Assembly (NCBI RefSeq): GCF_003675855.1
Contig: NZ_RCIH01000001.1
Coordinates: 248,001 to 312,000 of the forward strand
Length of the DNA stretch: 64,000 nucleotides
Direction: 5' to 3'
From: Halostella salina
GTDB taxonomy: Archaea > Halobacteriota > Halobacteria > Halobacteriales > Natronoarchaeaceae
Within the stretch, counting starts at the first letter, position 1; each line of letters starts with the position of its first letter. Shown here piece by piece: positions 2,451 through 5,614 of the stretch. The notes under the pieces are model-generated. The model saw only the letters and a list, made by a program, of their open reading frames with translations, was not told the origin of the DNA and made no database searches. Made by a program: the position numbers and the translations under genes.

Positions 2451-3677
2451 ATGTCTTCGACAGACGTGCTCGTCGTCGGCGGCGGCGCGACCGGTGTGGG
2501 GATCGCACGCGACCTCGCGATCCGCGGCGTCGACGCCACGCTGGTCGACCGCGACGGCCTGAACGGCGGCACGACCGGGCGATCGCACGGCCTGCTCCAC
2601 AGCGGCGCGCGCTACGCCGAGAACGACCCCGAAGGTGCCCGCGAGTGCATCGCGGAGAGTCGGGTCCTCCGCGAGATAGCGCCCCACTGCCTCGGCGGCG
2701 ACGGCGGCTACTTCGTCGCGCTTGCCGACGACGATCCGGACTACTTCGACGAGAAGGTAGCCGCCTGCCGCGACCTCGACATCCCGGTCGACGTGCTCGA
2801 CGGCGAGGCGGCCCGCGAGACCGTCCCCGACCTCGCGGCGACCGTCGACCGCGTGGCGGCGGTCCCCGACCGGGTGATCCACCCCTCAGCGCTCGTCGCG
2901 GCGACGGCGGCCGACGCCCGTGACCACGGGGCGACGATCCGGCCGCACACGCCGGTCCGCGACCTGCTCGTCGAGGGCGGGCGAGTCGCCGGCGCGGCCG
3001 TCGAAGCCGAGGCCGCCGTCGAGACGATCCGCGCGGACCACGTCGTCAACGCGACCGGCGCGTGGGCCGGCGAACTGGCCGAACTGGCCGGGGTCGACGT
3101 GGAGATGCGGCCCAGTCGCGGCGTGATGGTCGCGGTCGACTACGGGGGCCTGCCGGTCGTCCTGAACCGCTGTCGGCCGCCCGCGGACGGCGACATCGTC
3201 GTCCCCCACGCCGACCAGGCCGTGCTCGGCACGACCAGCGTCGACGTCGACGACCCCGACGACTACCCGCAGGAGGACTGGGAGGTCGAACGCTGCATCG
3301 AGGAGTGCGCCCGCCTCCTGCCGCCGGTTGCCGACGCGACGGTCGAACGGGTCTGGTGGGGCGTCCGCCCGCTGTACGGCCCGGACGAGGACGAACGCCC
3401 GGGCGGCCGTGGCATCTCGCGGGGCTTTTTCGTCCTCGACCACGCCGACCGCGACGGCGTCGCCGGCTTCACCACCGTCGTCGGCGGGAAGCTGACCACA
3501 CACAGACAGATGGCCGAAGCCGTCGCGGACCGCGTCTGCGAGCGCCTCGGCGTCGACGCCGACTGCCGGACCGCCGACGAACCGCTCCCGTTCCGCGACG
3601 ACCCCGAGGGTCTCGCGGCGGCCGTCGGCGAGTTCGACGCGGCCGCGCCGTCGGACGTTGACGTCGATCCGCACTGA
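2451..3677 (+). CDS. GlpA-like FAD-dependent oxidoreductase (short form)
   Basis: A 408-residue DAO-family flavoprotein. The N-terminal dinucleotide fold is GGGATG at residues 9-14, followed by a DRDGLNGGTTGRSHG loop and a C-terminal FAD segment (TTVVGGKLTTHRQMAE). These resemble subunit A of anaerobic glycerol-3-phosphate dehydrogenase, which oxidises glycerol-3-phosphate to dihydroxyacetone phosphate and feeds quinones. Full haloarchaeal GlpA is nearer 550-600 residues; this protein stops right after the FAD domain and has no Cys-rich C-terminal region. No glpB, glpC or glpK lies nearby. It may act on another 2-hydroxy acid or polyol phosphate. The ATG at 2451 fits the Rossmann motif. Confidence 0.75.
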   Translation: MSSTDVLVVGGGATGVGIARDLAIRGVDATLVDRDGLNGGTTGRSHGLLHSGARYAENDPEGARECIAESRVLREIAPHCLGGDGGYFVALADDDPDYFDEKVAACRDLDIPVDVLDGEAARETVPDLAATVDRVAAVPDRVIHPSALVAATAADARDHGATIRPHTPVRDLLVEGGRVAGAAVEAEAAVETIRADHVVNATGAWAGELAELAGVDVEMRPSRGVMVAVDYGGLPVVLNRCRPPADGDIVVPHADQAVLGTTSVDVDDPDDYPQEDWEVERCIEECARLLPPVADATVERVWWGVRPLYGPDEDERPGGRGISRGFFVLDHADRDGVAGFTTVVGGKLTTHRQMAEAVADRVCERLGVDADCRTADEPLPFRDDPEGLAAAVGEFDAAAPSDVDVDPH

Positions 3678-3713: not shown

Positions 3714-4301
3714 TCAGTAGCTCGGAAGTCCGCGTTCCTCGCGCCCGCGTTCGCTCGTGGCCCCCGTGTTGCCGTGGCGCTGCTGGCCGCCGGCTCGGTT
3801 GCCGCCGCCACGTCCTGCCCTGCGGCGCTGCTCGTTGGCCGGGGTGTCCCCCTGCCGTCCGTGCTGCTGTCGTTGCTGCCGGCGCGACGATCCACCGTGT
3901 CGGCGGCCGGGGTTTCCACGCTGGCCACCTTGCTGGCTGTGCCGTCCCTGTCCGTACCGCTTCCCCTGCTGCTGACTTCGCTGCTGGCCTCGCTGTTGCC
4001 CGGCCTCCCCGGACTGCTGGGCGCGCTGGTGGCTGTGCTGCTGGCGCTCGCCGCCCCGGCCGCGCTGCTGGCCGCCTCGCGACCGGTGCTGCTGTGTCTG
4101 TCCCTGCTGGTGCTGCTGTGCCTGCCCGCGCTCGGTTCGCTGCTGCCCCCGGTTCCCCTGTTGCTGTCCCCGGTGTTCCTGCTGGTATTGCTGTCCGTGC
4201 TTCCCCTGGTTCTGCCGGCCCGATTGCCCCTTACGGGACCCTCGCTGGCTGGTTTCCGCTCGGTCCGTTCCTCGCTCGCTTCGGCTGTGGTATCGCGCCA
4301 T
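3714..4301 (-). CDS. Gln/Gly/Arg-rich low-complexity basic protein
   Basis: A 195-residue protein from the ATG at 4301 (a TTG 15 bp further out would add five residues). Counting the 200-residue version gives about 47 Gln, 41 Gly and 37 Arg (over 60 percent together), but only 12 Asp/Glu and 3 Lys. It is almost free of aliphatic residues and rich in QQ, RGG-like and GQQR units. It is therefore strongly basic and presumably disordered, the opposite of a normal acidic halophile protein. A TTAAT box about 30 bp upstream supports expression. RGG/Q-rich tracts often bind RNA or DNA, but no function is known here. A hydrophobic ORF on the other strand is considered a shadow. Confidence 0.6.
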   Translation of the reverse strand: MARYHSRSERGTDRAETSQRGSRKGQSGRQNQGKHGQQYQQEHRGQQQGNRGQQRTERGQAQQHQQGQTQQHRSRGGQQRGRGGERQQHSHQRAQQSGEAGQQRGQQRSQQQGKRYGQGRHSQQGGQRGNPGRRHGGSSRRQQRQQHGRQGDTPANEQRRRAGRGGGNRAGGQQRHGNTGATSERGREERGLPSY

Positions 4302-4330
4302 TGCAGTCCCGGGCAACGACGAGGTCCGGG

Positions 4331-4338
4331 ATTAACCG
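4331..4338 (-). promoter_or_regulatory. TATA-like box for Q/G/R-rich gene
   Basis: Read on the minus strand this is GGTTAAT, 30-37 bp before the ATG at 4301. It is the only A/T-rich patch in a GC-rich stretch and would give a nearly leaderless mRNA. Confidence 0.4.
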
Positions 4339-4496
4339 CGCCGGTCGTTCGCGCCGTTTCGCGTGAAAGCGCCGTCGTCGCCGACGGTAAGCCCGGCCAA
4401 GCGGCGGGAAAGTGGCTTCGTGGACGGCCGTAACCCCGGCTTGCAATCGGTCATCGGACAGAAACCGTGGCGTACTCCGGGCGTCGTCCCGCGTCA

Positions 4497-4583
4497 GTCG
4501 CCCGCGGTGACCACTCGTTGCGAAACGCCCGCGAAAAACAGCGAACCCCTACTCGAACTCCTCGATCAGCGCCGGCACCACGT
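4497..4583. repeat. Tandem repeat copy 1 (degenerate etfA 3' end)
   Basis: This segment recurs 109 bp further right at 4606-4692. Both begin GTCGCCCGCGG, carry a similar GACCACTCG block, and end with an identical stretch that in copy 2 encodes the last residues and stop codon of EtfA. Copy 1 lies outside the gene and has diverged in its middle. Confidence 0.8.
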
Positions 4584-4605: not shown

Positions 4606-4692
4606 GTCGCCCGCGGCGACCACTCGTCGCAAAACGTGGGCGAAAAACCGCCGGACTCTACTCGAACTCCTCGATCAGCGCCGGCACCACGT
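4606..4692. repeat. Tandem repeat copy 2 (functional etfA 3' end)
   Basis: Second copy of the 109-bp-period repeat. It contains the etfA stop codon (4658-4660) and the codons for its C-terminal PALIEEFE. The last about 35 bp are identical to copy 1; the 5' part has several substitutions. Confidence 0.8.
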
Positions 4693-5614
4693 CGAACAGG
4701 TCGTCGACGATGCCGTAGTCGGCCAGGTCGAAGATGGGGGCGTTCGGGTCGGTGTTGATCGCGACGATGGTGTCGCTGCCTTTCATCCCGGCGACGTGCT
4801 GGACCGCGCCGGAGATGCCGATGGCGATGTACACGTCGGGGGTGACGACCTTCCCGGACTGGCCGACCTGCCGGTTCTTCGGGAGCCAGCCGTTGTCGAC
4901 GATCGGCCGCGAGGACGACAGCGTCGCGTCCAGCGCGTCGGCCAGATCCTGCACGAGTTCGATGTTCTCCTCCTCCTCGATGCCGCGGCCGACGCTGACG
5001 AGCACGTCGGCCTCGCTGATGTCCACGTCGCCGCCGCCGGCCTCCTCGAAGCCGGTGACCGTCGAGCGGACCGCGGACTCGTCGATGTCGGCGTCGAACG
5101 CCGTCACGTCGGCGTCGCCGGTGCCCTCGGCGGGCGGCCACTCCGCGCCGCGGATCGTGACGACGGCGCGGTCGGCGTCGAGTTCGACGGTCGTCTCGAC
5201 CTTCGAACCGTACATCTCGCGGGTCGCGACGAGGCCGTCGCCCGAGGCGTCCAGACCGATCACGTCCGTGACCACCGGGAGGTCGAGCCGGTTCGCCACC
5301 GCGGGCGCGTAGTCGAGCCCGTTGACGCTGTTGGGCGTCACGACGTAGCCGGCGTCGGTCGTGTCGTACAGCTGTGCGACCGCCTGGGTGTACACGCCGT
5401 GGTTGAACTCCTCGCCGTGGTCGACGGTGTGGATCGCGTCGACGCCCTCGCGGTTCAGGTCCTCGGCGAAGGCGTCCACGTCGCCGCCGATGACGGCCAG
5501 GTGGAGGTCGCCGCCGGTCTCGTCGGCGAGTTCGCGCCCGACGGTGATGACCTCGTAGCTCACGTCGCGCAGGTCGCCGCGGCGGTGCTCGGCGACGGCG
5601 AGCACGTCCGTCAT
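4658..5614 (-). CDS. etfA: Electron transfer flavoprotein, alpha subunit
   Basis: A 318-residue ETF alpha subunit. The C-terminal FAD domain (about residues 195-318) has the family signature: SVGRGIEEEEN, then LPKNRQVGQSGKVVTPDVYIAIGISGAVQH, and INTDPNAPIF. With EtfB it carries electrons from acyl-CoA and related dehydrogenases to an ETF:quinone oxidoreductase. Its ATG overlaps the etfB stop by 4 bp (ATGA), so the two are one operon and probably translationally coupled. Its 3' end is tandemly duplicated downstream. Confidence 0.95.
   Translation of the reverse strand: MTDVLAVAEHRRGDLRDVSYEVITVGRELADETGGDLHLAVIGGDVDAFAEDLNREGVDAIHTVDHGEEFNHGVYTQAVAQLYDTTDAGYVVTPNSVNGLDYAPAVANRLDLPVVTDVIGLDASGDGLVATREMYGSKVETTVELDADRAVVTIRGAEWPPAEGTGDADVTAFDADIDESAVRSTVTGFEEAGGGDVDISEADVLVSVGRGIEEEENIELVQDLADALDATLSSSRPIVDNGWLPKNRQVGQSGKVVTPDVYIAIGISGAVQHVAGMKGSDTIVAINTDPNAPIFDLADYGIVDDLFDVVPALIEEFE

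Follow-up and report, generated by a model that had tools for sequence, protein, structure and literature searches.

Hydrophilins form a class that is defined by composition, with Gly above 6% and high hydrophilicity; a strong positive charge and a Gln bias are not typical of them. RGG/RG-motif proteins of the FUS/FMRP kind are Arg/Gly/Gln-rich disordered chains recognized by closely spaced RGG triplets beyond what composition yields, and the hydrophilic KGG/GsiB/con-10 stress repeat proteins (PF10685) carry the repeat EARKGG-xxS. The cytosolic copper storage proteins (Csp; DUF326), which are relevant here only for candidate partners, adopt a four-helix fold. For a haloarchaeal protein class or element of the kind reported below, we found no description in the abstracts of the open-licence literature and no model in Pfam or NCBIfam, in line with the original prediction that no such haloarchaeal system had been described.

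The stretch analyzed here (the window) comprises 64,000 nucleotides of the Halostella salina genome (G000). The features that matter at the locus are the following.

2451–3677, plus strand: FAD-dependent oxidoreductase (DAO, PF01266; GlpA-like by reading of the sequence), the convergent neighbor and second synteny anchor
3714–4301, minus strand: Q/G/R-rich protein of 195 aa, MARYHS...GLPSY, predicted to be disordered (from the ATG ORF, composition and structure model)
4302–4393, minus strand: upstream region alignable with that of relative G002 (75.6% over 127 nt including the gene start)
4329–4350, minus strand: upstream element GAACGACCGGCGCGGTTAATCC, matching RAACNRNYGNNNCGGTTNATYC, with a BRE/TATA-like 3' half, 27 nt before the ATG
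4658–5614, minus strand: etfA (electron transfer flavoprotein alpha; named from reading of the sequence), the upstream neighbor and synteny anchor

The ATG ORF has its boundaries exactly at 3714–4301; if an alternative TTG codon 15 nt further upstream were the start, the product would have 200 aa. The 195-aa product consists of 24.1% Q, 20.5% G and 19.0% R (63.6% together), followed by S (7.2%), H (5.6%), E (5.1%) and N (3.1%), with no Q run longer than three, the last two values bearing on a comparison with prion-like Q/N-rich proteins. It holds 40 K/R against 12 D/E (net charge about +28), neither I nor V, and one L, so that the strongly basic chain, more than 60% Q, G and R and nearly free of aliphatic residues, which had been predicted is indeed encoded. 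The disorder proposed with it agrees with an AlphaFold model built on a genus alignment, in which mean pLDDT is 42.7 and 0 of 195 residues reach 70; this is consistent with a fully disordered protein. Scans against Pfam and NCBIfam found no matching model up to an E of 10, and an Rfam scan gave chance matches only.

With 20.5% Gly, a GRAVY of -2.36 and predicted disorder, the protein falls within the composition of hydrophilins, hydrophilicity being judged here by GRAVY, and its orthologs are similar (Gly 23–30%, GRAVY -2.3 to -2.5). A hydrophilin-type protectant, shielding macromolecules against desiccation, osmotic or stationary stress with no specific partner, is a serious rival explanation, if on balance an unlikely one: the protein differs from hydrophilins in its strong positive charge and Q-richness and has no sequence family match, among them none in Pfam to KGG/GsiB-like or LEA families. 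The KGG/GsiB/con-10 proteins resemble it in hydrophilicity, and a module of its relatives (RGG-x-HS) is loosely like theirs, yet even the isolated module had no Pfam match at E up to 10.

The chain had also been read as RGG-like. RG pairs exceed the shuffled expectation in the window copy (13 versus 7.6) but not in the three orthologs, and in none of the four copies do three RGG lie within 4 residues of one another, the largest cluster being two in the window copy and one in each ortholog. Closely spaced RGG beyond composition is thus absent, and with RG no more frequent than in shuffled sequence for three of the four copies, the RGG reading is not supported; a folded RNA-binding domain is missing as well. 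These counts bear equally on whether the protein binds nucleic acid, in the nucleoid or as RNA, through Arg-rich disordered contacts. Its net charge and that of its orthologs (+33 to +37) speak for such a role, whereas the unremarkable RG/RGG content, a nearly neutral sister QGR protein in G001 (+42/-34) and the weakening of electrostatic contacts by molar salt speak against it, leaving a rival that is serious though rather improbable.

Because low-complexity handling hides relatives from sequence search, we used synteny for finding them. Indeed, a protein search with the 195-aa sequence in 59 relatives matched only itself, and tblastn in plasmids gave no match. Comparison of the etfA loci of the window genome and eight relatives from the family revealed an intact gene adjoining etfA in four of the five genus genomes searched (G000 included), the others being same-strand Q/G/R-rich ORFs downstream of etfA in G002 (268 aa), G004 (318 aa) and G001 (356 aa). 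All four intact proteins start with MAR and end in Tyr. In G003 the copy is broken by a frameshift and an internal TAA and has no end matching the other copies; here the gene is lost. The proposed checks by conservation and by frame disruption therefore gave a favorable answer for the former, close relatives keeping the gene, and a divided one for the latter, the frame being intact in four genomes and disrupted in G003. In the four family genomes outside the genus no Q/G/R-rich stretch was present in the regions examined, and the scan matched genus loci only. A profile (A1) run over 392 genomes at E up to 10 matched eight, of which only the genus ones are convincing, and missed the window genome's own copy. 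As a background measure, 80 etfA loci contained 865 ATG ORFs with a length of at least 150 aa, and none of these had 12% Q or more. By synteny, the ORF can be identified as the local copy of a genus-wide gene in the etfA–DAO interval.

The same interval shows two further peculiarities. In the window, an 87-nt direct repeat (4497–4583 and 4606–4692, 86% identical) duplicates the etfA 3' end downstream of that gene; G008 has a similarly duplicated etfA end (L110, about 5524 and 5677), and other relatives have one copy. In G001 (L107, 952–3071) and G003 (L108, 2018–4137), the QGR gene is immediately followed, on its own strand, by genes for a response regulator and a receiver-GAF-BAT-HTH_10 regulator, as judged by Pfam for the G001 pair and by reading for G003. 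This BAT/HTH_10 regulator, set aside as a candidate, adjoins the gene in two of five genus genomes and is missing from the interval in G000, G002 and G004.

ORF length alone is weak evidence for coding because CAG/GGN/CGN-rich DNA is open in several frames, and the region is indeed open in others, for example as a 219-aa Leu-rich ORF on the plus strand. In codon-blind DNA alignments, gap lengths were divisible by 3 in 6 of 6 (G000–G002), 12 of 12 (G002–G004) and 14 of 14 cases (G004–G001), and in 4 of 8 (G000–G004), 5 of 11 (G000–G001) and 11 of 15 (G002–G001) for the other pairs; these counts are no independent proof, because CAG periodicity favors in-phase alignment. Among the four intact genus copies, sense codon position 3 is the commonest substitution site in six of six pairs. 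The third position of the antisense hydrophobic ORF is sense position 1, and the position-3 excess therefore favors the minus-strand frame over it. On these sequence grounds, ORF 3714–4301 qualifies as a genuine protein-coding gene. The opposite reading, a nearly neutral low-complexity ORF driven by CAG/GGN/CGN slippage and open through composition rather than function, draws on the several open frames, on weak 12-nt and 9-nt tandem arrays, on the broken G003 copy and on a window copy that is short, Q-poorer and devoid of the module described below. We consider it very unlikely given the conserved start, 27-nt promoter spacing and terminal Tyr, the position-3 excess, and the presence of relatives with the module elsewhere in the order, outside this family.

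The module in question, RGGxHSAxxQQRDEQGQFxG (also written RGGxHSAxxQQRDQQGQFTG), is carried by relatives of the protein, in several of them repeatedly, and occurs once in the G004 copy (N-terminus) and once in the G002 copy (C-terminus). With an E cutoff of 0.01, a profile of 12 rows matched 17 of the 392 genomes from the order, some of them, including genus ones, having supplied rows; those without a row are G003, G010, G015, G097, G161, G175, G279, G311 and G353. Within the genus, the copies of G004, G002, G001 (all three profile rows) and G003 match, and that of G000 does not, so that the window copy has lost a module found in its relatives. What it shares with the class is Q/G/R-rich low complexity, genus synteny, the upstream element and the terminal Tyr. 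Its place there rests on synteny, promoter, ends and composition; the module alone would not file it there. A QQGGQQ codon pattern, present in 45 of 392 genomes and useful as a lead only, given many matches in the reversed control too, pointed to low-complexity proteins rich in Q/G that occur outside the family but within the order. Sequence comparison thus relates the gene to a haloarchaeal class of low-complexity proteins that are rich in Q/G and sporadic in occurrence. Pfam gave no match for seven Q-rich relatives at E up to 1, and neither Pfam nor NCBIfam held a model for the five genus copies (G003 scanned against Pfam only) or other scanned Q-rich proteins, sub-threshold matches to folded parts of L126 and L161 excepted. 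A viral origin was also considered and dropped, as a module scan of viral contigs yielded no confirmed relative.

Upstream of the gene, a plausible TATA box had been predicted, and a TATA-like GGTTAATCC does lie about 30 nt before the ATG. The upstream element at 4329–4350 has no other match in the window even when up to 2 mismatches are allowed. ACGACYGnCnCGGTTRATCC is common to the upstream regions of the five genus copies, and the element ends exactly 27 nt before the ATG in five of five, the broken one of G003 included. It forms an imperfect dyad (RAACnG....CnGTTT) that directly adjoins the TATA box, and its 3' half has the look of a BRE/TATA, placed where a leaderless haloarchaeal transcript would be expected to have one; we infer a short leader or a leaderless start.

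The element recurs upstream of several of the Q/G-rich genes from the wider class, although these look unrelated. Across 392 genomes, RAACNRNYGNNNCGGTTNATYC occurs at 64 sites in 45 genomes, compared with one site for the reversed pattern. Its free positions are biased over 63 distinct sites (G at position 5 in 42, T at position 7 in 43, C at position 12 in 37, T at position 18 in 49). A hand tally of the genes behind the 64 sites is partly circular, as some ten of the sites had given rise to the pattern. In this tally, 8 proteins are Q-rich and of low complexity throughout (one of them broken, in G003), 8 have a four-helix domain and a Q-rich or R-rich tail, 9 are disordered and hydrophilic in other ways, 14 seem to carry a signal sequence, and the remaining 25 sites have some other gene or none that is clear. 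The 9 hydrophilic disordered proteins add to what favors a protectant. When up to 1 mismatch is allowed, the five genus genomes have 21 sites, of which 13 stand before genes for Q/G/R-rich or tailed proteins, with none for the reversed control; the other eight do not, those in the window genome being G000:C2:462864 and G000:C3:233540. Free of circularity are the CBS-domain proteins with Q/G/R-rich N-terminal tails that the pattern newly found in G000, G002 and G004, and a second QGR gene of G001 (L201), found blindly about 2.8 kb from a four-helix gene. Equally free of it is a relative of L201 in G004, found via protein search, which has a site matching at 14 of 16 positions, also 27 nt before the ATG.

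Other data loosen the link between element and protein class. Seven module-bearing proteins (L130, L131, L139, L140, L217, L219 and L221) have no good site within 200 nt upstream, which counts against a tight association. Sharing the element need not mean physical partnership, because many secreted or unrelated genes also stand behind it, and no common pathway was seen in the neighborhoods of the putatively co-regulated sister genes. A link to PHA granules, where the repeat at which PhaR acts lies close to the TATA box, was not supported; passages of PMC6085418 and PMC10948481 contained no matching site.

Two groups of proteins were also noticed behind the element. A family of hydrophilic disordered proteins (L162, L169, L175, L178, L249, L252, L254, L255 and L258), mostly with MATDDxDTD... 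starts and RRYGSRPP motifs, has it 26–30 nt before the ATG, and L165, L171, L173, L177 and L247 are secreted proteins with a common domain that bears the motif DEQESDGEMLVVDSVTVPEGGFVVIHEE.

The tailed proteins behind the element, our candidate partners, are of two kinds.

L199, 723–1427 (G000:C10), with L161, L166, L196, L197, L211 and L246: four-helix proteins of Csp fold that carry long Q/G-rich tails, several with W or F as the last residue
L244, 5705–6757 (G000:C4), with L202 and L206: CBS-pair proteins with Q/G/R/P-rich N-terminal tails of about 200 residues and a near-match of the element upstream (Pfam confirmation of the CBS domains covers the G000 protein alone)

In the model of the G000:C10 four-helix protein, pLDDT exceeds 90 in much of residues 47–151 and stays below 50 in the tails. 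Its best PDB matches are the copper storage proteins 6q6b, 6ei0 and 5fig (TMt 0.76–0.89 for the leading Csp entries; best Foldseek E 1.8e-3), and DUF326 matched one homologue only at E 7.9. By their best PDB matches, these proteins are predicted to be copper-storage-like in fold; they differ from Csp in that the genus copies have few Cys and long Q-rich tails, and copper binding is putative. Within the genus, the last residue is Trp in Q-tailed four-helix proteins and Tyr in the QGR proteins of the etfA locus, and we conjecture that the terminal aromatic residue matters.

Altogether, the gene lies behind a specific putative promoter element that also fronts genes of disordered or Q/G-tailed proteins, namely copper-storage-like four-helix bundles and CBS pairs. 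This suggests a co-regulated set that has not been described before. We thus tentatively favor, at a likelihood somewhat short of even, an inducible disordered protein belonging to this set and perhaps scaffolding its tailed partners. A regulator or general factor may act at the dyad next to the TATA box and turn on all genes of the set at once, probably under stress or in a certain growth phase. Being fully disordered, the QGR protein could then serve as a multivalent scaffold, gathering Q/G-tailed partners into a salt-tolerant assembly by weak tail–tail contacts involving Q, G, R, H and the C-terminal aromatic residue. Phase separation driven by charge would be expected to fail where the cytoplasm holds molar KCl. 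The similarity of the tails could also be convergent composition. A more far-reaching version, to which we attach a low likelihood, is a haloarchaeal regulon run from one dedicated element, where the disordered Q/G/R scaffold and folded proteins with matching Q/G-rich tails (Csp-like bundles and nucleotide-sensing CBS pairs) would build a condensate or granule that is inducible, stable in salt and provided with clients it can recruit.

According to the usual view, the proteomes of salt-in archaea have to be acidic and folded; a conserved class of proteins that are basic, fully disordered and under a dedicated promoter does not fit this view. Such a class would be a natural test of which side-chain contacts, among those of Q, R, H and aromatic residues, work for assembly at molar KCl. 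Furthermore, the genes expected to be induced together can be predicted from a single element sequence, which has already led to an unannotated second member. The element may thereby offer a route to a haloarchaeal regulator or an alternative TFB not yet known.
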